A stretch of DNA of 64,000 nucleotides from Leptolyngbya sp. NIES-2104 (GTDB lineage: Bacteria; Cyanobacteriota; Cyanobacteriia; Leptolyngbyales; Leptolyngbyaceae): contig NZ_BBWW01000001.1 in NCBI RefSeq assembly GCF_001485215.1, forward strand, positions 2,542,001 to 2,606,000, given 5' to 3'. Position numbers and translations under genes: made by a program. Under the pieces are notes generated by a model. That model was not told the DNA's origin. It saw only the letters and a list, made by a program, of their open reading frames with translations, and searched no databases. Below are positions 23,649 through 55,138 of the stretch, one piece after another; within the stretch, counting starts at the first letter, position 1, and each line of letters opens with the position of its first letter.

Positions 23649-23722
<74 letters not shown>

Positions 23723-25889: not shown

Positions 25890-25953
25890 GCTTAGTGATA
25901 CTCAGTAGCCAGTACGCCTAAGATAGCAGTACGTGTGTTCCTTAGTAGTCAAA

Positions 25954-34014: not shown

Positions 34015-35085
34015 ATGAATGCCTACGAAATGCCAGCAAATCCACTAAACGCCATTAATCAATCTGAGTCCATTTCTACGACGGTTCCGATCGCCTTCGA
34101 TGTCGGAAATCATGAAATTAAGGTTGCTTACTCGAATGTAGTTTGGGTATCTGAAGCGGTTTATGCACCTGTTTTTTCATGGAAGGAAGTCGAAGATTTC
34201 AAGTACATCGATGCGAATTCCGCTCATGTCGAGTACATCGACGGCGATCGCGCTGATTTGATCGGGAAGCAGTGGATCGCCGGATCGAGTGCTTTAACCT
34301 TGCTCCCCGATCGTGCTGAACGCCTGGTGTCACGCGGCGGAAATCGCGGCAAAGTCGATTTAGGGTTGCAGATGCTACTTGCTGCAATTGCCCCACGAAT
34401 CGACGGAGAACACATGGATATTGTTCTAGTCGCATCGATGCCAGAGCTAAACGAACTCGCTCAAACTCTGAAGCCGAAACTGCTCGGAACTCACAAAGTC
34501 ATCCGCAACGGTAAGCACTTCACCGCAAACATTAAGCAAGTCGCTGTGATGCGAGAAGGTTCAGGAATGTTCGTTTATGGACGATCAAAAGAGCTTTTCT
34601 CTCTGGGTGCTGAGATTGGCACGATCGACTTAGGCGGCGGCACAACCATCACCCAAGCATTTCAATCGAACGGTAAAACCATTCCCGCAGGTCGGTTAGT
34701 TCTCGATCGCGGCGTGAATGATTTGATTGCGGCGATCGTGGCGGACAAGCGATGGTCTGGATTGATGAGCCGTACACCAGATGCCTCATTAATTCTGCAA
34801 GGAATCCGAGCGGGTAAGTTCCTGTACGGTGGTCAGAAAATCGCCTTTGAAGAGATTTACAGCGATCACCTGAAAGTTTGGATTCAAAGCACTGTGATGC
34901 CTGCAATTAAGCAGTTGTCAGCCGTACAGGACAGACTCGAAAAAGTGTTCATCATCGGGGGCGGTAGTCAGATTATCAAGAGTGCATTCGAGAAGAACCC
35001 AGACATCACTTGCTTGGGTGACGATGCACAGACCGCACACGTTCAGGGAATGTTGCTTCTTGCTCGGAGGGGAATCAATGGCTAG
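34015..35085 (+). CDS. parM: ParM/StbA-like actin-type segregation ATPase
   Basis: A 356-residue actin-fold protein. Phosphate-1 motif IAFDVGNHEIKVAY (about residues 27-40), phosphate-2 IGTIDLGGGTTITQ (about 201-214) and adenosine motif VFIIGGGSQIIKSAF (about 312-326) are all present in order. ParM filaments push plasmid copies apart during division. It is followed with an 8-base overlap by a ribbon-helix-helix gene in the ParR position. Its presence in an integrated element suggests an extrachromosomal, replicating phase. Confidence 0.88.
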   Translation: MNAYEMPANPLNAINQSESISTTVPIAFDVGNHEIKVAYSNVVWVSEAVYAPVFSWKEVEDFKYIDANSAHVEYIDGDRADLIGKQWIAGSSALTLLPDRAERLVSRGGNRGKVDLGLQMLLAAIAPRIDGEHMDIVLVASMPELNELAQTLKPKLLGTHKVIRNGKHFTANIKQVAVMREGSGMFVYGRSKELFSLGAEIGTIDLGGGTTITQAFQSNGKTIPAGRLVLDRGVNDLIAAIVADKRWSGLMSRTPDASLILQGIRAGKFLYGGQKIAFEEIYSDHLKVWIQSTVMPAIKQLSAVQDRLEKVFIIGGGSQIIKSAFEKNPDITCLGDDAQTAHVQGMLLLARRGING

Positions 35086-35329
35086 ACCACGAACCGGAAA
35101 AGGAGAACGGGTTGTGATTGATTCGCTGTATGTCGAAGAACTAAGAGCGATCGCAGATTCCGAGATGTTCCCGTCGATCGGAGCGGTGGTAAACAATGCG
35201 CTCCGTGAATGGTTGAAGTGTCGATCGGGTGAGCCATGCAGCACCGTTTCTAAGCTGCAAGATGTTGCACCGATTCAAGCAAAACAGGGTGTATCGCTAG
35301 ATGTTGATTTTCAAATGGAGACAATCTAA
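35078..35329 (+). CDS. ParR-like ribbon-helix-helix adaptor
   Basis: An 83-residue protein whose ATG (35078) lies inside the end of parM after a GGAGGGG stretch, so it is translationally coupled. ERVVIDSLYVEELRAIADSEMFPSIGAVVNNALREWL fits a ribbon-helix-helix domain. By position and fold it is the likely ParR partner that ties ParM filaments to a DNA centromere. The reading frame is open further upstream within parM, but the coupled ATG is preferred. Confidence 0.65.
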   Translation: MARPRTGKGERVVIDSLYVEELRAIADSEMFPSIGAVVNNALREWLKCRSGEPCSTVSKLQDVAPIQAKQGVSLDVDFQMETI

Positions 35330-36307: not shown

Positions 36308-37039
36308 ATGACTAAAGGATTTCAGTCAACCGACGAAACCAAGATCGCGATCGTGATTAAACGACTTGCACCCGCAGCAAAACGAGAAGATTACGATGCT
36401 CTGAATCAAGGCATTCTCAAAATGGTCGAGCGTCACGGCGGTGAAGTTGTAGAGCAAGCAATGATTCGCATGATCGATGATTTTCCATTCGTCCGACAAA
36501 AGGCAATTGAAAATCTACCCGATGATCAAAAGCAAATGTTCAACGCTGAGGCAGTCGCGATCATTGCTGGACTTCTGGAAGAGTCAGGCTTACGACTCGA
36601 AGATCATATTCGTTATGGCGATCGTGGCATTGCTCTAACTCATGAGGCGATTCGAGCAATTGCCAATACTGGATGCCCCAATGCTTCGGACTTTGGAATC
36701 GGGAACGAGAGCTTAGAAGGAATCGGCATCGATCGCGCTCCATTCATGCACCCACTGACAGAAACATTCCAGCACAACGGCGAGGATTACGTTAACAGTT
36801 GGGGACTGGCATCAATGACGATCAATTCAGTCCTGAACTGGCTTGATGAGCCACCGGACAATCCTGAAACGCCACGATCGTTTATTGCCGATTGCGTCTC
36901 GCGAGTCGCTCCCACCGTGGATTTAGAAGCAATGCTGTTTCGTGCCAGATACGACGATCGAGCACTGATGAAGCTTGCATCTTATGTAGAGTCAGGATTT
37001 AACGCGATCGCTCAAAAGGCGGTTGATGACCGTAAGTAG
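36308..37039 (+). CDS. hypothetical protein, 243 residues
   Basis: Not recognised. Soluble and largely helical, with no membrane segment and no obvious enzyme motif; acidic overall. AGGAA lies 11 bases upstream of the ATG. It lies 12 bases after the small membrane peptide, probably in one transcript, and is followed by hairpin copy 5. Confidence 0.55.
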   Translation: MTKGFQSTDETKIAIVIKRLAPAAKREDYDALNQGILKMVERHGGEVVEQAMIRMIDDFPFVRQKAIENLPDDQKQMFNAEAVAIIAGLLEESGLRLEDHIRYGDRGIALTHEAIRAIANTGCPNASDFGIGNESLEGIGIDRAPFMHPLTETFQHNGEDYVNSWGLASMTINSVLNWLDEPPDNPETPRSFIADCVSRVAPTVDLEAMLFRARYDDRALMKLASYVESGFNAIAQKAVDDRK

Positions 37040-37045
37040 ACGAAA

Positions 37046-37084
37046 TGCCGATCGCTTTGCCGTAGGAAAGTTCAGCGATCGGCA
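37046..37084. repeat. GCCGATCG hairpin, copy 5
   Basis: TGCCGATCGCT / AGCGATCGGCA is an 11-bp stem with a 17-base loop, immediately after the stop of the 243-residue gene. Confidence 0.55.
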
Positions 37085-37121
37085 CTATCCCACAAATTCA
37101 CCATTTGGAGATTCCAACATT

Positions 37122-37472
37122 ATGACCACGAAACATAGCTCGATCAGCTATTACGGCACGTCGAATCAGTCAGCACTCAAAGCATTGATTGACGAGTACG
37201 GCGATCGCCTGCAAATTCTGACCGCATCCGAGAAGTTTGCTCTACTGCTTCAAGTCACCGATTGGCAGTATCACGACACGATTTCGCAGGAAAGAGGCGA
37301 CGAAGAAATCTCGCTACAAGAGCACATCAATGATGCGTTCATCATTCCTAACGACTCGGACGCATTCAGCGCGATCGAGCTTCTTGCTCAGAACCAGATT
37401 TCGAGCGATGAAGCACTCGACTTGATGAATGCACTGATTCAGCAATTGAAAGAAGGGGTTTATCTGCAATGA
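37122..37472 (+). CDS. hypothetical protein, 116 residues
   Basis: Not recognised. Soluble and acidic; central block LTASEKFALLLQVTDWQYHDTIS then a helical C-terminus. GGAG lies 9 bases upstream of this ATG; the frame is open back to 37023 but without a ribosome binding site. The next gene starts within its stop (ATGA). Confidence 0.5.
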   Translation: MTTKHSSISYYGTSNQSALKALIDEYGDRLQILTASEKFALLLQVTDWQYHDTISQERGDEEISLQEHINDAFIIPNDSDAFSAIELLAQNQISSDEALDLMNALIQQLKEGVYLQ

Positions 37473-37612
37473 CCCCAGAGCAACGAAACGATTTAATCGG
37501 TGCAATTCTTGTCGCGATCGCGGTTTTGTATCTAGCTCCAATTCTTCCAGCCGCGATCGACTTTCTCGCAGTCCGCATCCATCAAGACTTTGTGCAAGGG
37601 AGGGAGAAATGA
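37469..37612 (+). CDS. single-span membrane protein, 47 residues
   Basis: Starts by ATGA overlap with the previous gene and ends by ATGA overlap with the next. LIGAILVAIAVLYLAPILPAAIDFLAV is one membrane helix; the tail is charged. Not recognised; its exact coupling on both sides supports it as a real gene in a membrane-protein operon. Confidence 0.55.
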   Translation: MTPEQRNDLIGAILVAIAVLYLAPILPAAIDFLAVRIHQDFVQGREK

Positions 37613-38022
37613 GCCTAAATCTTCCGCTCAAATGGCAAGTTCCCGCACTGGGCGCGATCCTTGCCGCTACGACATTACCACTCGCCATCACACTCTATCG
37701 GCAGTCCAATGCTCAATTAGAGCAACGCAACACGATCGAGCAACAAACTGCAACCGTGGCAGAAAACGAACGAATCGCACTCGATCGCGCTCGTCGTTGC
37801 TTGCTCATCAATGAACGTTATCCGCTCGTCGAAGGCAATAACGCCTGGTATGACCCAACCAACCGCAAAGATAAGCGACTGTTGCCATCGGGCACAGCGT
37901 TATGCAGCGCGGCATCTGGCTACACCGCAGAAGTCGATTATCTCGGCACTGTGAAAAACATCCGACAAGCCCCGATCGAGAAAATCACCCAAGTACTAAG
38001 ACAACGAGGATTAATCCGATGA
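37609..38022 (+). CDS. membrane-anchored hypothetical protein, 137 residues
   Basis: One N-terminal membrane helix (residues 10-27, QVPALGAILAATTLPLAI), then a coiled-coil stretch (NAQLEQRNTIEQQTATVAENE), then an extracytoplasmic-type domain with two cysteines (RRCLLINERYP, TALCSAAS). Begins with GGGAG upstream and ATGA coupling. Not recognised. May be an envelope component working with the ATPase downstream. Confidence 0.55.
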   Translation: MSLNLPLKWQVPALGAILAATTLPLAITLYRQSNAQLEQRNTIEQQTATVAENERIALDRARRCLLINERYPLVEGNNAWYDPTNRKDKRLLPSGTALCSAASGYTAEVDYLGTVKNIRQAPIEKITQVLRQRGLIR

Positions 38023-38780
38023 AACCTACCGGAAAAACTGAACCCGTCCACACTGGAAACAACGAATTCGATAACAATCGATTTAAGCCCAAGTCCGCAA
38101 ATGACAAGCCCGAAAAGTCAGTCGGTATCGATGCCGGGGCACATCTCGGAGACGCGATCGAGAAACTCGCAAGCATCTTGCTCAGTCCATCGGTGATGAT
38201 GACAGCGGGTTATATTGGCGCGGGTGTTTGTTTAGCGATCGGCATTCATGCTTATGGTCGATTGCTCATTCCAGCACTAGCGGGAAGTCTACCGATTCCG
38301 TTTGACTTTGCTTCTGGAGTTGCTTTATCCGTTGTGTTGGGCGCGGGATTGCAACTGCTCGAAATCTTCCCGCGACTCGATACTTACTTCCCCGGTATGG
38401 CTGAACGGTTAGCGGTGAAACTGAAACTTTCCCCAGTGGCACAACCGAAAGCCGATCGCAACTCTCCTTCATTGCTTCCACAAGCGGTGGATATGGCGAA
38501 ACGTAGCTCTGAGCGACTGTTTAAGGATATGCAAGGGGCATCTGCGATCGCTTACGGAATTGAGGTTATCGGTGCATTGTGGGCATTCCAAATTTTCACA
38601 AATGGTGTTCTGAATGTTCCCGGCATCATCGGGGCGATCATTGCGGTTGTCGGATTTGAAATCTGTCTGAAGTTCTCTAGCTGGATGAAGCAATTGCGGC
38701 TCACTGCTCGGCAGTCTCGACACTACCGGGAACATCAGCGCAGATTGAGAGCCGAAGCTGCTCAAGATTTGCAGAAATAA
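38019..38780 (+). CDS. multi-span membrane protein, 253 residues
   Basis: Starts by ATGA overlap (38019). A hydrophilic N-terminus of about 45 residues, then three or four hydrophobic segments (about 60-85, 93-113, 182-202 and 205-225), then a basic C-terminal tail (RQSRHYREHQRRLRAEAAQ). Not recognised. It ends the coupled chain and is followed by a hairpin, then the ATPase gene. Position suggests a membrane partner of the ATPase. Confidence 0.6.
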   Translation: MKPTGKTEPVHTGNNEFDNNRFKPKSANDKPEKSVGIDAGAHLGDAIEKLASILLSPSVMMTAGYIGAGVCLAIGIHAYGRLLIPALAGSLPIPFDFASGVALSVVLGAGLQLLEIFPRLDTYFPGMAERLAVKLKLSPVAQPKADRNSPSLLPQAVDMAKRSSERLFKDMQGASAIAYGIEVIGALWAFQIFTNGVLNVPGIIGAIIAVVGFEICLKFSSWMKQLRLTARQSRHYREHQRRLRAEAAQDLQK

Positions 38781-38849: not shown

Positions 38850-40571
38850 ATGGGATCTAATCTAACCCGGTACAACCAAACGAGTAGCGATCGTGCCACC
38901 GCATCTCATGACGAATCACTATTCGGGCACTATGTCGAAGAATGCGGCTGGACAGTGAAAGAGACGTTAGAAAATCTCGCGCCGATCGCGAAACAGACCT
39001 ACGCTCAAACGGTTTCAGTCGCATCTAGCTCGAAGTGGTTAGCGGTTGCAGGCGGAATCATTGGATTGCTCGGAGGTGGGACGGTTGGCTTAATTGGTGC
39101 GTTACCACTGGGCGCGGCTGCATTAGCTTTCTTTGCTTACCGAGAGGCGAATCAGTGCATTTCTCGTAGGGAAATTGAGCTTAGAGCATTAAAGCAATGT
39201 CCCCAACTTCTAGACCTACTGTATGGTTGCCATCTCAAAGGAGTTGAGGCAAAAAACCTAATCGCAGCATGGGACATCTTTCTAGACAATTACGAAGAAT
39301 CTGGTAGTGCTGACGCGAATCTGATGGCGCGTGAGTATTTGCGGGTTCTAGATGGGTTGTGCTTCACCATTGATCAGGGTGGAGGTGTTCCAATGCCTCA
39401 AGAATTGCCAGAAAAACAACCTGCTCGGATTCAAACACAACTTGGAGAACAAAGCGCGATCGAGGTTCCTGTACAAACATCAAACTGGAATGATTCACCC
39501 GCTCAGGCTCCGGTAGATACCATCCAGCAAGTTAAAGCAGTTTGCGATCGCAATAACTCTTTCTACATTGCAGGCTCAAAAGGCAGTGGTAAGGGAATGT
39601 TTGCAGCGAATCTACTGCGATGGAAGCTGGATCAATTTCCCAACGCGATCGCGCTCATCCTTGACCCCAAAGGCGACTTAAAAGAATCAGGCTATTGGCA
39701 GCACGATCGCATCAAACATTTTTCATTTAAGGGAATTGCACTAAGCAGTGCTGACTACGAGAAGAGAGTGATCGAGTTTCTGACAGAAGCGCGTAACTTG
39801 GTTTCTCAGGCTGATGTCACCCGTGGGATGAGATTGTTTCTCGTACTGGATGAAATGCTCACGGTGAAAGAGTCTGTTTCGGACAAATTATTTGCAGAGT
39901 TCCGACGATTCGGAGTTTCAGCAATCAGCACCGGAGACAGTGAAGGCATCCACTTGATCGCCATCACTCAGTCATTCAATGCGGGTGATTCTTTTGGTTC
40001 TGATGAAGTGCTGAAGAACTTTACTCAAGTGGGATTCTTCAGACAAGACGAATACCAACGGGCAAAGAAACTGATTCAGTACGGCAGATCAAATTCTGAA
40101 TCATTAACCTCTGCCGAATTCAATCAGATGGTAAGTCAGTCTCCAGTCGATCGTGTGATGTCGATCGCGGGTGAATTTATCCCAACTCCCAAGCTTGAAA
40201 ACTACTCTGCTTACGATCGCGACTCTGGCAAAGTCATCAAACAAATGCCGATCGGAAGCAATCCAAGTGAAGGCGATTTACTTGCTGATCAACTCAAGAA
40301 CGAAGTGGCTAAACGAACGGTTCAAGTCACAAATCAAGAAAATGATTTAACCGAAGCGATCGTTAAGTTAATTCGTGAGCAGAAAGACAATGAAGGATGG
40401 ATTAGTACAAGAGACATCTTGAGATCTGTTAACAAGTTATTTCCGGGCACAACTTCAGGCGATATCGAAGGACGTTGCCGTACACTTGCTCATGTTCACC
40501 CTACTAAGTTTGAGTTTCGCATCGTTCAAGGAAAGGGAAGTCCATCGAAGCAGGTTCGAGCGATTAACTAA
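38850..40571 (+). CDS. FtsK/HerA-superfamily membrane ATPase (TraB- or coupling-protein-like)
   Basis: A 573-residue protein. Two membrane helices at about residues 62-98, Walker A AGSKGSGKG at 241-249, LDPKGDL at 271-277 (typical after strand 2 of VirD4/HerA proteins), Walker B LFLVLDE at 329-335 and AITQSFN near 371. The C-terminal 85 residues (from ISTRDILRSVNKLFPGTT) look like a winged helix. Members pump DNA across membranes. With no relaxase in the element, transfer of double-stranded DNA as by actinobacterial TraB is a plausible role. An array of GACACTT repeats starts 18 bases after the stop. Confidence 0.75.
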   Translation: MGSNLTRYNQTSSDRATASHDESLFGHYVEECGWTVKETLENLAPIAKQTYAQTVSVASSSKWLAVAGGIIGLLGGGTVGLIGALPLGAAALAFFAYREANQCISRREIELRALKQCPQLLDLLYGCHLKGVEAKNLIAAWDIFLDNYEESGSADANLMAREYLRVLDGLCFTIDQGGGVPMPQELPEKQPARIQTQLGEQSAIEVPVQTSNWNDSPAQAPVDTIQQVKAVCDRNNSFYIAGSKGSGKGMFAANLLRWKLDQFPNAIALILDPKGDLKESGYWQHDRIKHFSFKGIALSSADYEKRVIEFLTEARNLVSQADVTRGMRLFLVLDEMLTVKESVSDKLFAEFRRFGVSAISTGDSEGIHLIAITQSFNAGDSFGSDEVLKNFTQVGFFRQDEYQRAKKLIQYGRSNSESLTSAEFNQMVSQSPVDRVMSIAGEFIPTPKLENYSAYDRDSGKVIKQMPIGSNPSEGDLLADQLKNEVAKRTVQVTNQENDLTEAIVKLIREQKDNEGWISTRDILRSVNKLFPGTTSGDIEGRCRTLAHVHPTKFEFRIVQGKGSPSKQVRAIN

Positions 40572-40589: not shown

Positions 40590-40709
40590 AAGTGTCATCC
40601 GCTAAAGTGTCTTAAGTGTCTCCAGAAGCCTGAAATAGTGTCACTGACACTTAGGACACTTTCCGCGACACTTTCCGCGACACTTAAGGGGGACACTTAC
40701 AGGACACTT
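40590..40709. repeat. array of ten GACACTT/AAGTGTC heptamers
   Basis: AAGTGTC at 40590, 40605 and 40614; TAGTGTC at 40636; GACACTT at 40646, 40655, 40667, 40679, 40692 and 40703. The last five are spaced 9-13 bp, close to a helical turn. AGTGTCA-C-TGACACT (40637-40651) forms a perfect inverted pair. The array fills the gap after the FtsK-like gene. It may be a recognition site for that ATPase, an iteron origin or an operator. Confidence 0.75.
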
Positions 40710-42792: not shown

Positions 42793-43128
42793 ATGCCGAA
42801 AAATTGCGGTTTGCAAGCGTGGAAATCACGTACCAATTCTAACAGGCGTGAGAATGATTCTCAAGTCTTCGAGCTAGTCGATCGTGAGCAGTTAGACCTA
42901 CTCGCTAATTTCCAACCGGAAAGAACGCCGGATCTGATTCTCGAACCAGTTCCCGATCGCTTTTCATTAGCAGACGATCGCTTCTACATTCATTACAACG
43001 ACTGGTATGCACCGATTCAACTGACTCGATCGCAAGCATATCGAGCGATCGAGCTTTGCGGCTCAAGTCGAGATTCTGACACGATTTGGCAAGCGATCGA
43101 GCGGACGGTTAACGGAGGTGTGCGATGA
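42793..43128 (+). CDS. hypothetical protein upstream of rep, 111 residues
   Basis: Not recognised. SLADDRFYIHYNDWYAPIQLTRSQAYRAIELC suggests a compact alpha/beta domain. The start is uncertain: the frame is open to a TTG at 42754 inside the hairpin, and the ATG at 42793 has no strong ribosome binding site. Its stop overlaps the replication gene start by ATGA, so the two are translated together; it may modulate replication. Confidence 0.5.
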   Translation: MPKNCGLQAWKSRTNSNRRENDSQVFELVDREQLDLLANFQPERTPDLILEPVPDRFSLADDRFYIHYNDWYAPIQLTRSQAYRAIELCGSSRDSDTIWQAIERTVNGGVR

Positions 43129-46100
43129 TCACCTCCTTATCGAAGCTGATTCCAACCAAAAAATCGAATCCCTGTCCTGTTTGCGGCAACGTTTCCGGTA
43201 AGTGTCGCACCTTCGACGATAAACCGCTTGTTCTGTGCATGATGGCAGAATCAGCACCGGGATTTAAGGCGTTAGGCTTCACCAAAGACGGCTTATGGAT
43301 GCAATTTGCACCTGATTCTCAGTCGTTCGATCATGCGGCATATCTCGATCGTAAACGTGAGAAGCCAGAGCCACCCGAAACAATGCCGATCGACGAGCGC
43401 GATCAGTCCTACCGTGATTGGTTGGCTAATGGGTCATTGAATGAGCGCGATCGTGCTGATTTAATCCGTAGAGGCTTGTCTAATTCTGAGATCGCTGTCT
43501 CCAGTAAAATCGGTTATGCAGTCCCTTTCAAAGGACTAGACGGCAAATACGTAGGGGCACAGTGGCGACTTGCTGATCCGGGCGAAGGCGGTCGATATCG
43601 TTGGCACAATTTGAAAGGCGGAAAGTATTATCCAGGAACCGACGAGCTACCGATCGCCGTTTATAAAGTCGAGAATCCAACGGCGATCGCACTCGTCGAA
43701 GGAACCGGAATCAAGCCACTGTTGGCATCACAGCGATTAAACGCCGTTGTGATTGGTGCGGCTGGCGGGAATCATGCGAGTTCACCGATTCAGTTGAGAG
43801 CGGCGATCGAGGCATTCCCGAATCTGCCGATCGTGATTGTTCCTGATGCTGGCGATGTCTTAAATTCTCATGTGATGCGGCGGAACGATCGCACAGTTGA
43901 GACTTTACGGCAGTGGGAACTAGAGCCTAAATTCCTTTGGTGGAATCAGCGCACAAAACAAGAAAACGATATCGACGAGGCAACACAAGCCGAAATCGAA
44001 TCGGCTCAATTGCTGACACACGAGCAGTTCACAGCACTGACAGAAGAGCACGACGATCAAGCAGAACGCAGCAAAATTATTCAAGCAATTTTGGAGGCTT
44101 GCTATGTCCAGAATGGAAGTAGACATCGAACAAGCGAAAGTGTACAAAGTTCGGAAAAACGGCAAAAGGGGAGAGGTGAGCAAGGCAGAAACGATAAAAC
44201 ATCGAATGAACTTGCTAAAACTGGGCGCAATTTCTATCGATCCAGATCTTCAGAAATCCATCGATCGCTGGTATCCGCAATACAGAAAGTGTCGCGACGC
44301 TCGGATGCTGGCAACACACCCCATTCTGAAGGCTTCGCCAAAATGGAATACGGAGCCGTTCTACGTCGATTACGAACCTTTTCGATCGACGCACTGAAGT
44401 TTGTCCAAAACGTGGTTAGTGAACAGCCAAACCGCGATCGCCTAATCAGTAAACGGGTATTTCGATTCAGGCAGTATCAGGACAAATTACAACGCGATTT
44501 CCTGATGCCAACTCTGGTTAATGGCAATGAGATCCGATATCAAAACTATTCGGGATCGACATCAACCTTCGATCTGTTCGACGATACAACCTGCCTGCAA
44601 GGGTGGCTAGGAGCGGGAAAAACCGAAGCGATGTTAAAGTCGCTGATTCCGTTTCAGGACAAAGCGATCGTTTGGGTTGCACCTCGAAACGGATTGCTAC
44701 GCCAAACCGCACAACGCGCTAAGAAACTTGGATTTAATGTTTTCCACTACCAAGACGATCCAGGTAAGCACCGGATGATGCTCGAAGCAGGTGAACCGGG
44801 GATCTACTTTATGGCTCCGGACAGCTTCAAATCCTATGCTGTTTCTGGAATCCAATGGGAAAACACCATTTTCGCGATCGACGAGTTCAGCGGCATCCGA
44901 AAAGAGGTTCTAGGAAAAACTACCGAACTGCCACAATTCCTAGACGCGATCGCTCGTTGTGCCTCACTCATTGCGGCGGATGCGTTCTTGAGTCAAATCG
45001 ATATCCGCGTGATTCAGAAGCATCGAAGCGGCTCAATGCAGATTTTGAGGCAGGACTTTAAGAAGTCCCAAACTCGAATCAAGTGGCTAGAATGTCGCAA
45101 TAAAGCGGGTGAAATCTCGTTTAGTCATCTGGGAATTTATTACTCACTGCTCGATCGCTGGATTGAGCAAGGATTCAAGAGAATCGCGATCGCGGCGGAT
45201 AGTATTCGGGTTGCCAAACTGCTCGATCGCTACCTCAAATCGAAAGGAGTTAAAACTCAGCTTGTCTGCTCCGAGACACCAGAACAGAACGTCTCGTTTA
45301 TGGACGATCCAGACAAGATCATCCATAAAGACGAAATCGAAGCGATCGTTTACACTCCAACGGCTCAAAGTGGACTAGACATTCAAGCTGAATTCGATCG
45401 CGGGTTGCTCATTGCGACCGGGGTTTTAAGTCCCCTTCAAATGTTGCAAATGATGGGACGTTGCCGCAAATGTCCAGAATGGTACGTTTCAGCACCTCGC
45501 TTCTCTGGTAATCCTGAATGCGTCACACCGTCACTGGACGGTAGGAAGATTCAGCAATGGAGCGAGAAAATCGCTCTGGCATCAGAAGCGCTCGAATTCA
45601 ACGCACCCCAATCGATTCAACCTTGGGCAGTGTGGGAGCATCTCACGCGCAATATTGAGCAAGCGTTTAATTCCGAGTATTTGCGGCATCTGCTCGATCG
45701 CTTCTTTGAATCAGTCGAAGTGGTTGAAGTCGAGAACGATCGCGCTGGTCAATGGCGTAGGGATTCTGAAATCCTCACCCGCGAGGAAAAGGAATTGATG
45801 CTTAAAGCCAATCTCGGTAAAGGATTGCGATTAATTGACGAGCAGAAGCAACCGAAACTGAATTCGGAAGTTTGGGATATCAAGCTTGCTGAATTGTGGT
45901 TGAAGTATCCCAAAGTTATCAACAAAGCGATCGCGGATTATGGTGTCCCAGAGTGGCGCGACGATGCGATCGACATGACGAAGCTATTTTCGACTCGTCG
46001 GATTGAAAAGCTTCGGAACTATGTAATCGCAACGGAACCGAACGAACAGGACGATCGCGATTTGCGGCAATACCTGAAAGAACGGGTGACGCATTACAGC

Positions 46101-46613
46101 GCTGGCAACTTTAAGCGGCTGCAAAATGTCAAACTGTTCCGACTGCTCAATCTAGGTAAGTTGGCAACCGTTCAGAATCCAAAGGAACTCAAGGCGGGTG
46201 TAAATGCTTTCTGCGCGACATCAGAAGCGATCGAGAAACTGTACCGTAAGTTTCTCAATTCGCCTGAACTGGTGAAGCTGTTTCCGTTTGTGGAGTGCCA
46301 GCGGTCATTCTTTGGTGCGGTGAAAGCTTGCCTGTCGTATTTGGGGTACGAGAAAGGTGGCAAGTCGATTCGAGTCGCAACCGACGAGTTGAACCCGAAC
46401 GGATGCGATCGCAACGGAAATCAGCGGCTCACTAAATCAAAATCGATCTATCTCGTTTACTGGCTTGTGATGGAATGCAGCGGCTCTGCCTACTTCCGTG
46501 AGCATTTCAATTTGATCATTGATGCAATTCGCGATCGTCTTGAAACTGAACGGGAGGAGCGGCGAAAATGGCGCGAGAAACACGAGTCGCCACCAATAGA
46601 GATCGCAGCTTAG
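43125..46613 (+). CDS. CyRepA1-type plasmid replication protein (primase-helicase)
   Basis: A 1162-residue protein. N-terminal zinc-finger cysteines CPVC...C (17-38), a TOPRIM-like (DUF3854) region with ALVEGTGIKPLLA (about 190-202) and VIVPDAGD (about 238-245), then a superfamily 2-like helicase: Walker A GWLGAGKT (about 494-501), AIDEFSG (about 583) and MMGRCRK (about 777). This layout is the CyRepA1 family of cyanobacterial plasmids, which primes and opens the origin. The linker at about 325-425 is unusually Arg/Ser-rich and coincides with a nested gene-like frame (44,104-44,397). Confidence 0.85.
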   Translation: MITSLSKLIPTKKSNPCPVCGNVSGKCRTFDDKPLVLCMMAESAPGFKALGFTKDGLWMQFAPDSQSFDHAAYLDRKREKPEPPETMPIDERDQSYRDWLANGSLNERDRADLIRRGLSNSEIAVSSKIGYAVPFKGLDGKYVGAQWRLADPGEGGRYRWHNLKGGKYYPGTDELPIAVYKVENPTAIALVEGTGIKPLLASQRLNAVVIGAAGGNHASSPIQLRAAIEAFPNLPIVIVPDAGDVLNSHVMRRNDRTVETLRQWELEPKFLWWNQRTKQENDIDEATQAEIESAQLLTHEQFTALTEEHDDQAERSKIIQAILEACYVQNGSRHRTSESVQSSEKRQKGRGEQGRNDKTSNELAKTGRNFYRSRSSEIHRSLVSAIQKVSRRSDAGNTPHSEGFAKMEYGAVLRRLRTFSIDALKFVQNVVSEQPNRDRLISKRVFRFRQYQDKLQRDFLMPTLVNGNEIRYQNYSGSTSTFDLFDDTTCLQGWLGAGKTEAMLKSLIPFQDKAIVWVAPRNGLLRQTAQRAKKLGFNVFHYQDDPGKHRMMLEAGEPGIYFMAPDSFKSYAVSGIQWENTIFAIDEFSGIRKEVLGKTTELPQFLDAIARCASLIAADAFLSQIDIRVIQKHRSGSMQILRQDFKKSQTRIKWLECRNKAGEISFSHLGIYYSLLDRWIEQGFKRIAIAADSIRVAKLLDRYLKSKGVKTQLVCSETPEQNVSFMDDPDKIIHKDEIEAIVYTPTAQSGLDIQAEFDRGLLIATGVLSPLQMLQMMGRCRKCPEWYVSAPRFSGNPECVTPSLDGRKIQQWSEKIALASEALEFNAPQSIQPWAVWEHLTRNIEQAFNSEYLRHLLDRFFESVEVVEVENDRAGQWRRDSEILTREEKELMLKANLGKGLRLIDEQKQPKLNSEVWDIKLAELWLKYPKVINKAIADYGVPEWRDDAIDMTKLFSTRRIEKLRNYVIATEPNEQDDRDLRQYLKERVTHYSAGNFKRLQNVKLFRLLNLGKLATVQNPKELKAGVNAFCATSEAIEKLYRKFLNSPELVKLFPFVECQRSFFGAVKACLSYLGYEKGGKSIRVATDELNPNGCDRNGNQRLTKSKSIYLVYWLVMECSGSAYFREHFNLIIDAIRDRLETEREERRKWREKHESPPIEIAA
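44104..44397 (+). CDS. nested frame within rep linker, 97 residues
   Basis: A +1-frame reading frame wholly inside the replication gene. GGAGG sits 6 bases upstream of its ATG, one of the best ribosome binding sites in the element. The product (MSRMEVDIEQAKVYKVRKNG..., ending EPFYVDYEPFRSTH) is ordinary in composition, whereas the rep frame here is a low-complexity Arg/Ser-rich stretch. Either a true overlapping gene, or the sign that two rep proteins flanking it were fused by loss of a stop. Confidence 0.5.
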   Translation: MSRMEVDIEQAKVYKVRKNGKRGEVSKAETIKHRMNLLKLGAISIDPDLQKSIDRWYPQYRKCRDARMLATHPILKASPKWNTEPFYVDYEPFRSTH

Positions 46614-46792: not shown

Positions 46793-47011
46793 ATGTCTGA
46801 AAAAAATTGGTATTTCACCAATGAAGCAGCGATCGCGCTCGATTTGTCTGCCGAAAAACTGAGAAAGTTATATCGATCGGGAATGTTCAAGAAAGGGTTT
46901 CACTATCGAGATGTGTCACCTAACGGATCAAAGCGTCCAACACTGCAATTTCATGTGAATCGATGCCAGGAGCAACTAAATACGCCTCCTGAGAAGCGCA
47001 AATCATACTAA
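46793..47011 (+). CDS. excisionase-like helix-turn-helix protein
   Basis: A 72-residue protein. NWYFTNEAAIALDLSAEKLRKLYRSGMFKKGFHYRDVS is a MerR/AlpA/Xis-type winged helix pattern, with the C-terminal QFHVNRCQEQL often seen in cyanobacterial island excisionases. It lies 7 bases upstream of the integrase gene on the same strand. Likely directs excision of element 1. Confidence 0.7.
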   Translation: MSEKNWYFTNEAAIALDLSAEKLRKLYRSGMFKKGFHYRDVSPNGSKRPTLQFHVNRCQEQLNTPPEKRKSY

Positions 47012-47018: not shown

Positions 47019-48122
47019 ATGACATTAGACAAAATCAACGCTCGTCTAAGAGCGGCTAACCTTGGCGTGACCATTGAAGCGCGGGGCAAGGGGTCTTTAT
47101 TGTCCCTACGTGCGAAAGTTCCGCCTAAGAGCGGCGATGGAAAAGATTTGTGGCAGTACGTTCCGTTAGGACTGCGAAACAACCCTGCGGGGCTGAAACG
47201 AGCCGAATTAGAAGCGAAAAAGCTGTCGGTGCAAATTGGACTAAGAGAATTTAGCTGGGCTGATTGGGTTGAACCGGAAACGCCTGAACCTGACACGGTT
47301 TCGGCATGGATCGATCGCTATGAAATCGAATACTTTAATCGTCGATCGCGCACTCCAAAAAGTGAAACCACATGGCGAACCGACTATCGGCAACCTTTCG
47401 CACAGTTGCCACCGGATGAACCGCTAACACCTGAGATTCTACGTCGAAGCATCCTTGAGACTGAACCGGACACCCGCAATCGACAGCGGCGATGTATGGC
47501 TTTTGGACGTTTGGCAAAGTTCGCAGGCGTTGAACTGGATGCGAAATCACTGCGCGGCAAATACTCACCCAAACGAGTAAACCCGCGTGACTTGCCGAGT
47601 GACAAAGAGATTGCAGAATGGCGCGATCGCATAAATCAGGAAAATGAAGCTTGGGGCTGGTGTTTCGGGGTAATGGCTTGCTACGGACTGCGGAATCATG
47701 AGCTATTTCATATCGACTTAGAACGACTGCGAGACAGTCCGATCCTCACATTGACCGATGACCTTAACGGCGGTGGGAAGACAGGCGCTAGGCGGATCTG
47801 GGCGTGTTATCCCGAATGGTGGGACGAATGGCATTTGTGGAATATCAAACTACCGAACGTTACCGGAAAAACCAACTCTGATTTAGGTCATCGGGTAACA
47901 AATCAGCTTAAACGGTACGGTTTTTTCAAGCCGTACAATCTGCGACATCGTTGGGCAGTGAGGACGATCGAATTTGGAATTGCACCGGAGTTAGCAGCGA
48001 TTCAGATGGGACACAGCTATCAAATTCATTCTGATGTTTACCATCATTGGATCGGTGATGAGGTGCATCAAAGAGCTTTCGATATTGCCATGCAGCGAAG
48101 CGATCGACCCTTGCCACCGTGA
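47019..48122 (+). CDS. tyrosine recombinase (integrase) of element 1
   Basis: A 367-residue integrase. Catalytic residues fit R225 (CYGLRNHEL), K254 (GGGKTGARR), R309 (YNLRHRW), H332 (MGHS) and nucleophile Y341 (SDVYHHW). The position usually occupied by the first box II His holds Tyr306. N-terminal half carries the arm- and core-binding domains. It lies 137 bases from the attR core and would cut within the tRNA-Phe-derived sequence. The paired GTGAGCA motif overlaps its stop codon. Confidence 0.9.
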   Translation: MTLDKINARLRAANLGVTIEARGKGSLLSLRAKVPPKSGDGKDLWQYVPLGLRNNPAGLKRAELEAKKLSVQIGLREFSWADWVEPETPEPDTVSAWIDRYEIEYFNRRSRTPKSETTWRTDYRQPFAQLPPDEPLTPEILRRSILETEPDTRNRQRRCMAFGRLAKFAGVELDAKSLRGKYSPKRVNPRDLPSDKEIAEWRDRINQENEAWGWCFGVMACYGLRNHELFHIDLERLRDSPILTLTDDLNGGGKTGARRIWACYPEWWDEWHLWNIKLPNVTGKTNSDLGHRVTNQLKRYGFFKPYNLRHRWAVRTIEFGIAPELAAIQMGHSYQIHSDVYHHWIGDEVHQRAFDIAMQRSDRPLPP

Positions 48123-48258: not shown

Positions 48259-48301
48259 CTGAAAATCCTCGTGTCACGAGTTCAAGTCTCGTTCCTGGCA
48301 T
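48259..48301 (+). repeat. att copy 2 (attR of element 1, attL of element 2)
   Basis: 43 bases identical to the tRNA-Phe 3' end at 23680-23722. No tRNA 5' half precedes it, so it is a displaced fragment, not a gene. Confidence 0.93.
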
Positions 48302-48354
48302 ACATTTCAAGCTTTTAGATTGGGGAATCCCTAGATAGAAGCGCATTTGAATGA

Positions 48355-49566
48355 TTAAATATCTATCTCGTCTGGATTCCTCGCAGACGGCGCAAGGCTT
48401 GCGGTTTCCGAATCGTATCGAAATTGCTCGATCGTTCCTTCCCGGATTTTGTCAATCACCGCCTCAATTACCTCTAGTGGAACGAGGAACCACTCCCTCG
48501 GCTTCACGGGCATACCGAAGCGATCCTGCAATTCCAGCTCTAATCGAACGCTGCTGAAGAAGTTTTGAAGGAGAGCCTCAAGCCCCTTCCGATCGATATT
48601 TGCCAGCTTAAAGGTTGCTACGATTTCCACGTCTGCTAGCAAATAGGTCGGGTCTTTCTTCGCATTGGCAATCCGCTTTTTCACGTCTCCTCCGGTTACG
48701 CCAATTTTGTGAATGACTGAGCGATTTTCGGCGATGAAGGGATGATCTGATTTGCTCCTAAGCACGTAAATGTAGCCAGTCGGTAAGTCGTCCGTCGCTT
48801 CAACGTGGGAAAAAAGTGGACCGAAATCTGGGCTAGTGATGCGGCGACTGGTCTTATCTTTGTTTAATGCCCGTTGGAGCGATCGCAGCAGAAGATCGCT
48901 CTCGGTAGCATTGTCATAAATCACCCGGAGTCTACAGTCTGGACGACCATAATCGCTGACAAACGGCTCACCCATTTCGGCGACTAGCACCTTCTGCCCA
49001 TCAAGAATGAATAGGTCGCCTTGGTTGACTGCCGCATTGTCTTGATATTTCAGGGTTTGCCGCTCTCCTGTTTCTAACTGGCGCTGCACTTGCTCAAAAA
49101 TAGGCTTGAAGTCATCGAAGTCTGAGCAGAGAATCCGCTGTGCGACTTCCTCCGCTGCTTTGATTTCCTGACGCGATCGCACATGCACAAGCTGAGTCAC
49201 ATCGTTGTCCGCATTGATGCCCAGGGAGTCCAGCAGTGTTTCATCGTCGAGGTCTGCTTCTAGCGTCAGGCTGGTATCTGCTTCAGCCGTTAGCAATCCG
49301 TGAGAGTCGAGCGGTGCTAAAACAGCGCGACATTCCTCCGATTCCCGCAGGCGATCGAGCCGCACGGCGTAAAGCCGCTCGAAGATATCGTGCTCTTCTC
49401 CATGCTGAGGGAGCCTGCCCTGTTCTTCCACAAATCGCTCGATTTCCTCGAATCCGGCGATAATCCGCTCTTCTTTGGCGGAACGCTGACCGGACGGTTC
49501 GGCAGTAAGGTCTACACCTAACTCACCGAGTAATTCCAAATCATCATCAGTGGTGTCTTTAGGCAT
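48355..49566 (-). CDS. GIY-YIG nuclease family protein
   Basis: A 403-residue protein. The nuclease domain starts at GYIYV (264-268), with HKIGVTGGDVKKRI (286-299) supplying the catalytic-type Arg and LEALLQNFF the later Glu, like the T5orf172 subgroup. The N-terminal 260 residues are acidic and unassigned. Its start overlaps the helicase stop by 8 bases, so the two are one translational unit. With the helicase and methyltransferase it probably provides DNA cleavage in a restriction-like system. Confidence 0.75.
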   Translation of the reverse strand: MPKDTTDDDLELLGELGVDLTAEPSGQRSAKEERIIAGFEEIERFVEEQGRLPQHGEEHDIFERLYAVRLDRLRESEECRAVLAPLDSHGLLTAEADTSLTLEADLDDETLLDSLGINADNDVTQLVHVRSRQEIKAAEEVAQRILCSDFDDFKPIFEQVQRQLETGERQTLKYQDNAAVNQGDLFILDGQKVLVAEMGEPFVSDYGRPDCRLRVIYDNATESDLLLRSLQRALNKDKTSRRITSPDFGPLFSHVEATDDLPTGYIYVLRSKSDHPFIAENRSVIHKIGVTGGDVKKRIANAKKDPTYLLADVEIVATFKLANIDRKGLEALLQNFFSSVRLELELQDRFGMPVKPREWFLVPLEVIEAVIDKIREGTIEQFRYDSETASLAPSARNPDEIDI

Positions 49567-51620
49567 TCGTTTCTTCCTTCACTTTGCGTTGTAGGAAAGC
49601 AACCCCTTCTGCCATCCGTTTTTCCCAGGGATCAACCGCTGTGAGAGAGGGCACCCTGCCTTTTTCTTGCTTGAATCGCAGCGCTCGTTTGGTTAATTCC
49701 CGCGCTTCTTCCACGGTTAGGCTGACCCGTTTGGCGGCGATCACCGCTGCAACCTGCTTCAGTCGGTCTTCGCTCATGGACTTGGCGAGAATGGCATAAG
49801 CTTCGCCAAAGGGATTAATGCGATCGATGAGATCCATGTCTAACTCGGTGACAGATAGGGCAAATTGTCGCACTCCGTCGATGATGGCGGTGTTTTTAGC
49901 GGCTTCGCTGCTACTGGAGATGGTGTAGGTTCCACCCCTTTCGTTCATGGTTTTCTTGGCTTGTTGAACGAGGTTGAGAGCAGCGATCGCATGTTGACGA
50001 ACGGCTTCTTGATCCTCTTGCTCTAGATTTGGGAATTTCTCTTTGACGATTTTGCCCATGCGAACCTGTGTCAGTTCTTCTGGCACCAGTTCTTCATCGA
50101 ATAGACCACGCTCGATCGTGGGTTTATCTTGCACAAAGGCTGTTACCAGTTCGGTCAAGTCTTCGCGGCAGATGCGTTCGGCTTCCTGGCTCTTGGGTTC
50201 GGCTAGACCTTTGATTTCTAGCTGGATTTGACCCGTTTCGGGATTGACACCTACGTTGCACTTATTTGGATCGTAGCCGCCTTCGCCGTAGTCAAAGCCA
50301 GGGGTCGCTTGATTGCTCGGCTGCTTGGGTTTGAACTCGAAGCGCGGCGCGAGTACCTGTTCCATCAGCAGGCTGGCTGCAATCGCTTTGAGGGTGTCGT
50401 TTACGGCTTCGGTGACGGCTGCTTCGGTGGCATCTGGCTCGGCAATGAGGTTAGTGAAGCGGGCGCGAGTTTTGCCGGGTGCATCGCGGGTGGCGCGACC
50501 AATGATTTGGACAATCTCGGTTAAGCTGGAACGATAGCCGATCGTTAGGGCGTGTTCGCACCAAATCCAATCGAAGCCTTCTTTTGCCATGCCGAGGGCA
50601 ATGATGAGATCAACGTGATCGCGATCGTTTTTGTGAGCGGGGTCTTTTAGTGCGGTAGCGACTTTATCTCGCTTGGTAGAGTCGTCGTCTACAAGATCGG
50701 CGATTTTGAGAATTGTTCCGGCAGCAGTTTTTACCAGTTGAAACCCCGTTTTGGGATCGGTGCCTTGCCATTCTCCCAGTTCTTCGATGATGTGTTCTAC
50801 CTCGCGGATTTTGTCTTTTGTGCTCTCGCGGGAGTTGACGTTGGGAATGTGCAGAATGGTTTTCTCGCTGGGGTTCAGCACTTCCAATAGTTTGTCAGTG
50901 TAGCTGCCTGCATAGAAGTAATAGCCGATGTTGAGCTGCTTGAGGTGTTGGTAGCCGTTGAGCTGCTCGTAGTAGGTGTAGGTGATGGTGTCGAATCTGG
51001 ATTCGTCTTCGGGATGCAGGACGGCTTCGGCATCGCCCCTGAAGTAGGAGCCTGTCATCGCGACAATATGGGTTTTGTCGCGGGTCATGAGTTGGCGCAC
51101 ATGGTCGCCCAGCTTATTGTCTGGATTGGCGGAAACGTGGTGAAACTCGTCCACGGCGATTAAGCGATCGTCTAAAACTTCGATGCCAAATTTGTCTACG
51201 GCAAAGCGGAAGGTGGCGTGGGTGCAGACCAGTACTTTTTAGAAACTTCTTCACTGCGTCCACTTTGCCGCCATCAGTGCCTGGGGCATCGCAGAGATTC
51301 CATTTAGGTTCGACTTGCCAATCTGCCCAAAAGCCAAACTGACTCAGGGGTTCGTTGTGGAAGCTAGAACCGATTGATTTCTCTGGCACAACGATGATGG
51401 CTTGTTTGAGTCCCTGATTCTCCAGTTTGTCTAAGGCGATGAACATGAGCGCTCGGCTTTTACCAGAGGCGGGAGGCGATTTGATTAGGAGATATTGTTC
51501 GCCGCGCTTTTGGTAAGCGCGTTCTTGCATGGGGCGCATACCGAGAGCGTTGGGGCGGGTGGAGGTGTCATCTTGGGCGTAGCTGACGGAAACAGAGGGA
51601 ATTGCGATCGGGTTGCTCAT
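49559..51620 (-). pseudogene. DEAD/DEAH helicase, frameshifted at a T5 run
   Basis: Two overlapping frames together make one superfamily 2 helicase of about 686 residues. The first (51620 to about 51240) has Walker A SPPASGKS (48-55). The second carries VDEFHH (motif II), VAMTGSYFRGD and QIIGRATRD (motif VI). The join lies at the homopolymer 51236-51240: removing one base restores KVLVCTHATFRFAVDKFG into VDEFHH. Either true inactivation or a sequencing error. It would move or unwind DNA for the nuclease and methyltransferase partners. Confidence 0.85.
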
Positions 51621-51633
51621 AGGTATTTTTCTG

Positions 51634-52065
51634 CTAGAGCTGGTTTAAGAGTTCTGTAGGGGAGTAAATGGGGAGGTTGCTACCCATGAAGTCTTTCTGA
51701 TCGCAAGTGACGATTCCATCAAGTTGATTGAGGGTTGCACAGGCGAGTTGGATGCTGTCTTCAAAGTCTTTCAACCCAAAGCTGAGAGCGTTCTCGACGG
51801 TCTGACGATCGACAGTACAAAATTGGAGACCGATCAGTAGCTGACGAATGGCTACAAGAGCAACTTCACGACCTTCAGTTTTGCGAATGATGTAGAAAAC
51901 GTTAGTGATGGTGGTTGCGGCGACCCCTTGCGGGTAACTCGAAGAGATCGAGCCTTCCAAGTTGCCCTGTTCAATCTGCTCAAAAAGCGCGATCGCAGTT
52001 TCGACAAAGGGTTCTCTTTCCAGGAGTAGATCTAGGATGACGTTGGTATCGATGAGAATTCTCAC
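51634..52065 (-). CDS. PIN domain toxin (VapC-like)
   Basis: A 143-residue PIN ribonuclease. Acidic residues are in place: IDTNV (D6), a Glu-containing middle, DFEDSIQ and TCDQKDF near the C-terminus. It follows its antitoxin gene by 8 bases. Residues about 59-66 (SSYPQGVA) interrupt what is normally a continuous block before ATTITNVFYI, as if a small in-frame insertion had occurred; the DNA there can form a small hairpin. Activity may be affected. Confidence 0.8.
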   Translation of the reverse strand: MRILIDTNVILDLLLEREPFVETAIALFEQIEQGNLEGSISSSYPQGVAATTITNVFYIIRKTEGREVALVAIRQLLIGLQFCTVDRQTVENALSFGLKDFEDSIQLACATLNQLDGIVTCDQKDFMGSNLPIYSPTELLNQL

Positions 52066-52073
52066 GGGATGTC

Positions 52074-52313
52074 TTATTGGTATTTTTGGGTTAGATAGTC
52101 GGTGTATTCTGCTTGCAGGTCATCATTGCTAGGAGCTGCTCCAGAGCGTTTGACGATGCCCCGAAGTCCGGTGAGGGTGCCGGGGGGAATCGCTCTGGGT
52201 TGAGGGGGGGTGGGTTGTTTTTGGTGGAAAGCTTCGGCGAAGTTGAGGATTTCGTTGATCTGGTTTTCGGGAAGGGTTTGAATAAGCTGGTAGAGTTTTT
52301 CGGCGGCTGTCAT
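52074..52313 (-). CDS. antitoxin, DUF2281/VapB-like
   Basis: A 79-residue protein starting with KLYQLIQTLPENQINEILNFAEAF, the typical opening of DUF2281 antitoxins paired with PIN toxins in cyanobacteria, followed by a Pro-rich linker and a polar C-terminus that would wrap the toxin. It precedes the toxin gene by 8 bases on the same strand. Confidence 0.75.
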   Translation of the reverse strand: MTAAEKLYQLIQTLPENQINEILNFAEAFHQKQPTPPQPRAIPPGTLTGLRGIVKRSGAAPSNDDLQAEYTDYLTQKYQ

Positions 52314-52361
52314 GAGGTTTGGGGAGTAAATGGGTTTGTATTTCTATTGTGGCTGAAGGGA

Positions 52362-52545
52362 TTATGGCTTAGTTTTACCTTTAGCTGATTTTTTTGGCAG
52401 CGATCGCTGGGCGGTCATTCTGGTATATAAATCGAAGAGTTTTTCGAGGCGTTCGGTGTCGTTTTTGCAGCGGCGACCGATGTAGATACGATCGAGGATT
52501 TCGTCGTTGCGATCAGGGGATTGGCAGAGGTTGACGGGGTGTTCT
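52362..52545 (-). pseudogene. methyltransferase 3'-end fragment (copy a)
   Basis: Translating the minus strand gives RNDEILDRIYIGRR, KNDTERLEKLFDLY and MTAQRSL, then stop, closely matching the C-terminus of the full methyltransferase gene at 55139. No start codon or earlier part is present. It lies between the PIN/antitoxin pair and the AlbA gene. Confidence 0.8.
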
Positions 52546-52554
52546 CCATTTGTT

Positions 52555-52631
52555 TTTAAGCACTTAGATCCTTGTGAATCAAGGATTTGAAGCCTTGGGA
52601 TCTTGCAATACAGATTTGCATTTAAGCACTT
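52555..52631. repeat. 11-bp direct repeat flanking a hairpin
   Basis: TTTAAGCACTT at 52555-52565 and 52621-52631. Between them ATCCTTG/CAAGGAT (52568-52586) forms a perfect 7-bp stem. It could be a small insertion with target duplication, or a terminator after the AlbA gene. Confidence 0.4.
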
Positions 52632-54050: not shown

Positions 54051-54074
54051 AGTGATCTCTGTCGGCTATTGTGG

Positions 54075-54286
54075 CTAGGTTTTGCGTTTGGCGAGCTTTT
54101 TCGCGAGTGCTGGCTGACGGGTCGTCTTTGTATACAATTCAAACAGTTTTTAGAGGCGTTCGGTGTCGTTTTTGCAGCGGCGATTGATGCGATCGAGGAT
54201 TTTGTCAGTGAGATCGTGTGCTTCTCGGACGAGTGGGAACTCGCTGTCCATGCGATCGGATATCTCGGTGATCGTGGCTTCAGCTA
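54075..54286 (-). pseudogene. methyltransferase 3'-end fragment (copy b)
   Basis: The minus strand translates as ATITEI..., SEFPLVREAHDLTDKIL, CKNDTERL, an in-frame stop, then KLFELYTK, matching the same C-terminal segment of the methyltransferase at 55139. Three residues (YIG) are missing and the internal stop confirms decay. Its 5' boundary abuts the end of the RelE-HigA gene. Confidence 0.8.
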
Positions 54287-54811
54287 GTTTAAATGCGTGA
54301 GTTGGACGACAGGAATATGAGTATAAATTTCTCTGTTTTCTTCCTGAGCTTGACGTAAATCATACTGTGTTTGCAAGTTCATCCAGAACTGAGCACTATT
54401 CCCAAAATATTTCGACAAGCGTAGGGCTGTGTCTGCTGTAATACTGTGCTTTTCGGACAGAATCTCGCCGATGCGGGTTTGGGCTACACCGATATCTTTA
54501 CTTAACCGATAGGGGGTGATCTCTAGTGGCTCCAGAAATTCCATCCGCAGAATTTCGCCGGGGTGAATATTTGGCAAACGGTCACTATCCATAAGAATTT
54601 TCTCAGTGGTAGAGCATTTACGGATGCGAAGCTTGAGGACAGTGTAATTTGTTCCAGAAATCTGATCGCCGAGAAAGATGCCGGATTCCAAATCTTCAAA
54701 GATGGGTTGAAGGTCGTCATAGACTTTCCGATAGCGTTTTGCAAGTGCTTTTAGGCGGCGTTGAAATTCGGGGGAGGCGATGACCTCAACCTTAGCGACT
54801 TCATTCGACAT
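54284..54811 (-). CDS. RelE-like toxin fragment fused to HigA antitoxin
   Basis: A 175-residue chimera (Met4 of a frame open to 54820). Residues 1-65 (VEVIASPEFQRRLKALAKRYRKVYDDLQPIFEDLESG... VLKLRIRK) are the first two thirds of a RelE-type toxin. From about residue 75 it is a complete HigA antitoxin with an XRE helix-turn-helix (IHPGEILRMEFLEPL, PYRLSKDIGVAQTRIGEIL, DTALRLSKYFGNSAQFW). The catalytic C-terminal part of RelE and any HigB toxin are missing, so the product is probably non-toxic and may act as a regulator. Confidence 0.75.
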   Translation of the reverse strand: MSNEVAKVEVIASPEFQRRLKALAKRYRKVYDDLQPIFEDLESGIFLGDQISGTNYTVLKLRIRKCSTTEKILMDSDRLPNIHPGEILRMEFLEPLEITPYRLSKDIGVAQTRIGEILSEKHSITADTALRLSKYFGNSAQFWMNLQTQYDLRQAQEENREIYTHIPVVQLTHLN

Positions 54812-55040: not shown

Positions 55041-55138
55041 AATTGAGTAGCTGATGGATTGAAGGGAGTTGAGAGAGTTAGGATACAAATTAGCTAATTT
55101 TGCTTAAGCAGTGATGTAATTTTAGCCTCATCTTTAAC

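Follow-up and report, generated by a model that had tools for sequence, protein, structure and literature searches.

The element and its genes

The window, by which we mean the whole 64-kb stretch of DNA that was analysed, contains a 24.6-kb element that is integrated in a tRNA-Phe gene and bounded by 43-bp att repeats. Its features, in window coordinates, are these:

23649..23721, + strand: tRNA-Phe, the integration site
23680..23722, + strand: attL, a 43-bp repeat formed by the 3' part of tRNA-Phe
34015..35085, + strand: ParM-like actin, whose linkage to the module recurs in most relatives
35078..35329, + strand: ribbon-helix-helix-like ORF after ParM, a candidate ParR by inspection only
36308..37472, + strand: two small soluble ORFs (36308-37039 and 37023-37472), kept upstream of the trio in several relatives
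37609..38022, + strand: third gene of the trio, encoding a 137-aa protein that is hydrophobic near its N-terminus in a single segment (residues 9-31)
38019..38780, + strand: polytopic membrane protein of about 253 aa, the conserved partner directly upstream of the ATPase
38850..40571, + strand: membrane-anchored FtsK/TraB/HerA-like ATPase, 573 aa
40347..40568, + strand: C-terminal winged-helix domain of the ATPase (about residues 500-573), putative reader of the heptamer from AlphaFold2, Foldseek and co-variation
40590..40709, no strand: bipolar heptamer array, left arm of three AAGTGTC and a near copy, right arm of six GACACTT
40637..40651, no strand: central perfect inverted pair AGTGTCA-C-TGACACT, the point at which orientation switches
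43125..46613, + strand: CyRepA1-like replication protein, below the NCBIfam cut-off
46793..47011, + strand: 72-aa ORF that adjoins the integrase in relatives too, probably excisionase-like to judge by position
47019..48122, + strand: tyrosine recombinase/integrase
48259..48301, + strand: attR, right end of the element just behind the tyrosine recombinase, 43/43 match to attL

When the ORFs of this element were scanned against Pfam, the candidate ParR had no match, and neither a relaxase nor any part of a T4SS was found. The observation made from the sequence alone that the element has no visible relaxase therefore holds, and it extends to a 15-kb relative at the same tRNA site. This relative (L026) occupies the tRNA-Phe of genome G204, where tRNA and att copies are exact over 37 bp; a Pfam scan of the ORFs on L026, a locus that spans most of this element, matched only actin-like and integrase families. 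The tRNA-Phe of G163 holds a related 20-kb element (L116), and a single att copy is present at the tRNA-Phe of G190. Because the right flank is not syntenic in relatives, only left-side occupancy was used for this empty-site comparison.

Behind the element, a third copy of the tRNA-Phe att sequence (58517-58557) bounds a second segment of 10 kb (window 48259-58557), in which no integrase of its own was seen. Its cargo is defence-like and comprises an MmeI-type restriction enzyme (55139-57511), a Schlafen AlbA_2 protein (52632-54050), a GIY-YIG T5orf172 protein and a helicase-like protein. Inside the element lies a gene (25933-31014) whose product, a tape-measure protein of 1693 aa, contains M23 peptidase and phage tail lysozyme domains; no other recognisable phage structural genes accompany it.

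A membrane motor with a predicted winged helix

The ATPase has an N-terminal membrane anchor (a hydrophobic stretch at residues 63-98), a P-loop, GSKGSGKG, at residues 242-249, and a Walker B motif, FLVLDE, at about residues 330-335. In hhalign comparisons it ranked closest to pIJ101 TraB (90%, E 1.4e-6, 139 columns), followed by E. coli FtsK (77%), TrwB (13%) and, as a relaxase-helicase control, TrwC (5%). Neither the window ATPase nor 23 homologues reached the threshold of PF01580 (FtsK_SpoIIIE), and the sub-threshold Pfam matches include TrwB_AAD_bind. At most loci the gene before the ATPase encodes a membrane protein of 225-280 aa, even where its sequence is unrelated; the membrane partner showed no similarity to the SpdB of pIJ101.

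The sequence-only reading had described the end of the ATPase as winged-helix-like, and AlphaFold2 agrees: the last 104 residues, taken alone, were modelled confidently as a winged helix (pLDDT 86). The model of the full-length protein, built on an alignment of three sequences, was poor (pLDDT 40). In Foldseek, the structures nearest to the winged-helix model were mostly winged-helix regulators, none with an E better than 2e-3.

The motor core has been exchanged as well (alignment A1, L029 to L035): among ATPases whose N-terminal membrane domains closely resemble one another, at least three different P-loop cores occur.

The heptamer array

The array begins 18 bp behind the TAA stop codon of the ATPase (40569-40571). 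In direct reading, AAGTGTC starts at 40590, 40605 and 40614, the near copy TAGTGTC at 40636, and GACACTT at 40646, 40655, 40667, 40679, 40692 and 40703, for a total of nine exact copies in the two orientations and one near copy. The later copies are spaced by 9-13 bp. Number, position, gap, central inverted pair and spacing were all re-read just as they had first been described.

Such a concentration is exceptional in this DNA. Only the 7-mer of this array, including its overlapping registers, reaches at least five copies per 120 bp anywhere in the 64-kb window, shuffling of the 3 kb downstream yielded at most three copies, and no second cluster of the GACACTT heptamer was found across the 6.39-Mb genome. 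The identical array is missing elsewhere in the genome because every element has its own word. The rest of the element contains six heptamers where about three would be expected, an excess that is not convincing.

Arrays behind homologous ATPases

A profile search recovered relatives of the ATPase in 45 of 390 genomes of the class, the weakest matches covering only part of the motor, and relatives are also carried by Nostocales plasmids. None occurred in 50,697 phage records, scans of IMG/VR with ATPase peptide patterns gave no match, such scans of viral and genome collections returned nothing or only two loci already known, and two further orders contributed no additional loci of the close type.

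Arrays stand at the same place behind homologous ATPases from within the genus, the family and the class, but are built from different heptamers. In 25 of 56 loci, the 700 bp that follow the ATPase contain an array of at least six copies, as compared with 9 of 1004 background tiles of equal length from the same loci (Fisher 1e-27); in 22 of the 56 loci there is no array of at least four copies right downstream. Among arrays with at least six sites, 26 of 33 consist of an inverted arm, one switch and a direct arm, an arrangement that shuffled orientations produced 0.9 times on average and six times at most. The geometry is thus conserved and the word is not. The expectation that relatives would carry the same heptamer array after their ATPases was consequently borne out for place and geometry, but failed for the heptamer. 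The words are:

Window: GACACTT
L026: GGACAATTA
L027 and L034: TGTCCCTA
L028: ATCCAACA
L029 and L115: CGATACAG
L035, L120 and L141: TGCTACA
L031, L116 and L121: GACTAAA
L119 and L122: GTCATGA
L049 and L050: CCGTGGCA
L139: GTCCTACG

Even at the same integration site the word varies, as the tRNA-Phe elements of G204 and G163 have different heptamers. None of the three findings that the sequence-only reading had named as fatal to it (an array absent or unrelated beside orthologous ATPases, a C-terminus that is not a winged helix, a relaxase in the element) was made for the window element.

The position of the repeats varies in two ways. In one subgroup, the array begins about 370-440 bp downstream and an extra ORF lies between ATPase and array (L030, L031, L033, L116-L119, L121, L122, L127 and L128). 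In some Nostocales plasmids, the repeats are clustered within the coding sequence, in the linker between the motor and the C-terminal domain; these clusters, of CGAAACG or CGATACC, are those of L056 (-275 to -45 from the ATPase stop), L061, L135, L171 and L173. In other Nostocales plasmids no cluster was found.

The genome of the window (G000) itself encodes four further homologues of the ATPase, on plasmids C4 and C5 and at chromosome position 5340899, and at least two of them have their own arrays (TGGGTCA on C5, CCGTGTC on C4).

The heptamer and the C-terminus of the ATPase

Over 35 arrays, a set of modest size whose loci are partly related and whose motifs were scored by a scheme of our own design, heptamer similarity was correlated with similarity in the last 100 aa of the ATPase when the body was held constant (partial r 0.455, p<=2e-4, by a permutation that preserves the matrix structure and is not a phylogenetic test), and the corresponding value for the body with the C-terminus held constant was r -0.20. 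For the 27 loci with a membrane partner, the C-terminus retained its association given both body and partner (r 0.50, p 5e-4), and the partner given the C-terminus had none to speak of (r -0.08). The heptamer was shared in none of 309 pairs with dissimilar C-termini, and all seven pairs with the same heptamer have similar C-termini. Among the 24 pairs whose C-termini are fairly similar, 17 have different heptamers, which implies that the domain can change its specificity quickly.

Natural swaps point in the same direction. The bodies of L027 and L034 have no BLAST similarity, their last 80 aa are 60% identical, and both go with TGTCCCTA. L035, L120 and L141 all use TGCTACA and have C-termini that are 49-72% identical, on bodies that, for L120 and L141, are 24-28% identical to that of L035 or to each other. 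The C-terminus of L113 is 57-61% identical to those of L049 and L050, with a body identity of about 22%, and the heptamers are CCGTGTC and CCGTGGC, respectively. The converse also occurs: the window and L027 have bodies that are 78% identical, unrelated C-termini and different heptamers. By these comparisons, the heptamer follows the last 80-100 or so residues of the ATPase and not the rest of the protein. Because the word changes together with the C-terminus of the motor, each element appears to carry its own pump and a matching address. The array, its fixed position, its geometry and the match between C-terminus and heptamer are what the comparison of loci shows.

Other proteins of the element were considered as owners of the word and set aside: the Rep, since that of L127 is 85% identical over its last 726 aa and goes with ATCCGGT, not GACACTT; the integrase, since integrases that are 60-65% identical go with unrelated heptamers; the membrane partner, by the coefficient given above; and ParM, since the position of the array follows the ATPase.

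A probable loading site for a DNA motor

The explanation that we consider probable as a whole is that the adjoining ATPase would dock and load at the array as its cognate site. The ATPase would be a dsDNA motor of the FtsK/TraB kind, anchored in the membrane, and would act with the two small membrane proteins encoded just upstream. The heptamer would be read by the C-terminal winged helix; the motor would be loaded in an orientation dictated by the polar heptamers, and would then drive the double-stranded DNA of its own element across the membrane. That the ATPase reads the array is, from the co-variation, very likely; direct binding, loading polarity, translocation and transfer by the system are steps that we infer. 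The clt-like recognition by the ATPase that had been proposed at the outset is strongly supported at the level of sequence, because the heptamer co-varies and swaps with the C-terminal domain. Of the purposes that such a motor might have, the most likely is relaxase-independent transfer of the excised circular element from cell to cell, or its spreading, as by Streptomyces TraB/clt, and we regard transfer or spreading between cells as about evenly balanced between true and false. Motor and address would diversify and be exchanged as a matched pair, with the result that co-resident elements would stay separate.

Several features recall the TraB/TraA-clt systems of the Streptomyces plasmids pSVH1, pIJ101 and pWTY27 (PMC3583192; see also PMC4170104). 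Both have a membrane-anchored FtsK-type motor with a C-terminal winged helix (here predicted), short repeats directly behind its gene and small membrane proteins adjoining; in both the C-terminal domain would decide which repeat is recognised, in cyanobacteria as comparison suggests; and the Streptomyces systems work without a relaxase or T4SS, both of which the window element likewise lacks. The clt of pWTY27 takes in 16 bp of traA and the 159 bp that follow, and contains four copies of TGACACC; TraA has two membrane segments near its N-terminus (PMC3583192). Unlike the published clt sites compared, the array here is two-armed. The cyanobacterial motor also differs in having no match to the Pfam model FtsK_SpoIIIE, the model used to define the Tra of actinomycete integrative and conjugative elements (AICEs), its membrane partner is present but unrelated to SpdB, and the module is often accompanied by ParM; transfer by it is putative. 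Because FtsK_SpoIIIE was not reached and the partner is no Spd homologue, we have not filed the cyanobacterial system as a member of the TraB family; the best account of it is a dsDNA motor that would be addressed by sequence, have the array as its loading site and work like TraB/clt.

At the level of the whole element, the closest parallel is with AICEs of the pSAM2 type, which combine an integrase, a tRNA att site, their own Rep and a single FtsK-like motor without a relaxase (PMC3218068). The window element has the same set (tyrosine integrase, tRNA att, its own replication protein and an FtsK-like motor, with no relaxase or T4SS found), but a CyRepA1-like Rep replaces RepSA/RepAM/Prim-Pol, ParM is present, and the phylum is different. 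A HerA/FtsK-family ATPase, TdtA, is needed outside cell division for DNA donation during transjugation in Thermus (PMC5365140); unlike the cyanobacterial ATPase, TdtA has no detected DNA-binding domain and has a NurA-like nuclease as its partner.

Alternative explanations

The winged helix of the dsDNA motors FtsK and SpoIIIE reads short polar sites (KOPS and SRS, respectively) that set direction, and KOPS are oriented towards dif. The sites here differ from KOPS and SRS in being clustered beside the gene and specific to the element, and the motor differs in being a short form that the element itself encodes. Bipolar arrays recall the orientation of KOPS, and a reading of the data that we think unlikely overall, though it is a serious rival, is that the cognate pair pulls or clears element DNA through the closing septum with the help of ParM; the array would then act like a centromere or like KOPS, and the diversity of heptamers would reflect plasmid incompatibility. 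In most loci the module comes with a linked ParM gene, and this regular linkage points to segregation; the block of ParM, small ORFs, trio and ATPase is conserved on ICE-like elements and also on plasmids, whether or not these have a relaxase, and each of several co-resident plasmids has a module of its own. Against this, ParM and the likely ParR already make a partition cassette; chromosomally integrated elements do not need such a module; and the anatomy closely resembles that of clt beside tra (PMC3583192). Spreading within a filament is also a serious rival and is compatible with the same data.

Since winged helix and repeats adjoin one gene and the Foldseek matches are largely transcription regulators, the array might be an operator only, bound by the ATPase winged helix or by another winged-helix regulator to regulate transcription. 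A fused motor and membrane anchor would be superfluous for this purpose, and ten bipolar sites across 120 bp behind a gene would be unusual, so that we consider regulation alone improbable; as an additional role it is compatible with a loading site, and both can coexist.

Equally improbable is that the ATPase is a type IV coupling protein that works with a relaxase and an oriT-like array. VirD4/TrwB proteins share a related P-loop motor and an N-terminal membrane anchor with it, TrwB_AAD_bind appears below threshold, and many Nostocales plasmids with the module have a relaxase and no mating-pair genes; but the hhalign match to TrwB is weak (13%, as against 90% for TraB), and neither the window element nor that of G204 yielded a relaxase.

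A partition centromere, parC, bound by the ParR of a ParM system, is very improbable. ParM and a likely ParR do lie in the linked block, and in L026 a ParM-like gene with an actin-like Pfam match (L026:12822-13832) lies just downstream of the array. The window array, however, is 5.5 kb and seven other ORFs away from parM, array position follows the ATPase and not ParM, and the heptamer follows the C-terminus of the ATPase. No 6-8-mer in at least three copies, as in ParMRC-type repeats, was found directly upstream of parM.

Iteron arrays of short repeats are a common feature of plasmids, and a Rep is encoded 2.4 kb downstream of the array; that the array forms the iterons or origin of this CyRepA1-like Rep is nevertheless the least probable of these readings, because the L127 Rep, 85% identical over its last 726 aa, comes with ATCCGGT, integrases that are 60-65% identical come with unrelated heptamers, and the domain swaps concern the ATPase. 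Packaging by a phage or satellite was rejected, as none of the 50,697 phage records has the ATPase and the 1693-aa tape-measure protein is absent from the elements of relatives.

Hosts, mobility and a possible recognition code

Double-stranded DNA conjugation by FtsK-type motors has been described as a speciality of mycelial actinobacteria (PMC3158045; PMC3218068). If the loading-site explanation is true, a cyanobacterial counterpart would explain how tRNA-borne islands move without a relaxase. The Nostocales form of the module occurs in 56 plasmid records, every one of them from a filamentous genus, which provides a parallel to mycelia; a query with the replication protein does return unicellular cyanobacterial plasmids from the same collection, and this suggests that the module may be tied to multicellular hosts. 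Of these records, 45 of 56 are typed as mobilizable or conjugative, and a relaxase also accompanies the related module on plasmid C5 of the same genome; given such sister plasmids, the absence of a relaxase is no rule. Standard mobility typing scores pIJ101 itself as non-mobilizable, and systems of this kind would be invisible to it.

No earlier description of such a cyanobacterial system was found in the open-access literature searched. We offer tentatively, at somewhat short of an even chance, the proposal that these loci may represent a large undescribed cyanobacterial family of modules for relaxase-independent transfer or spreading of dsDNA, whose specificity would be swapped by one winged-helix domain and its array; each module would combine a two-armed array with a membrane motor and a pair of small membrane proteins, and the modules would be mutually orthogonal, with several per cell.

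Whatever the purpose, protein-DNA recognition can be tested directly with the matched set of winged helices and heptamers and with the natural swaps, and matched pairs offer orthogonal DNA addresses for cyanobacterial genetics. Between the groups with TGCTACA and CGATACA, consistent protein differences are concentrated in the stretch between helix 2 and helix 3 (NKARSPVRKM in the former, ARARKPVKGM in the latter). The winged helices that have an RD motif in helix 2 (window, L026, L029, L035, L038 and L125) go with heptamers that share the core (G/T)ACA, which hints at a readable recognition code.
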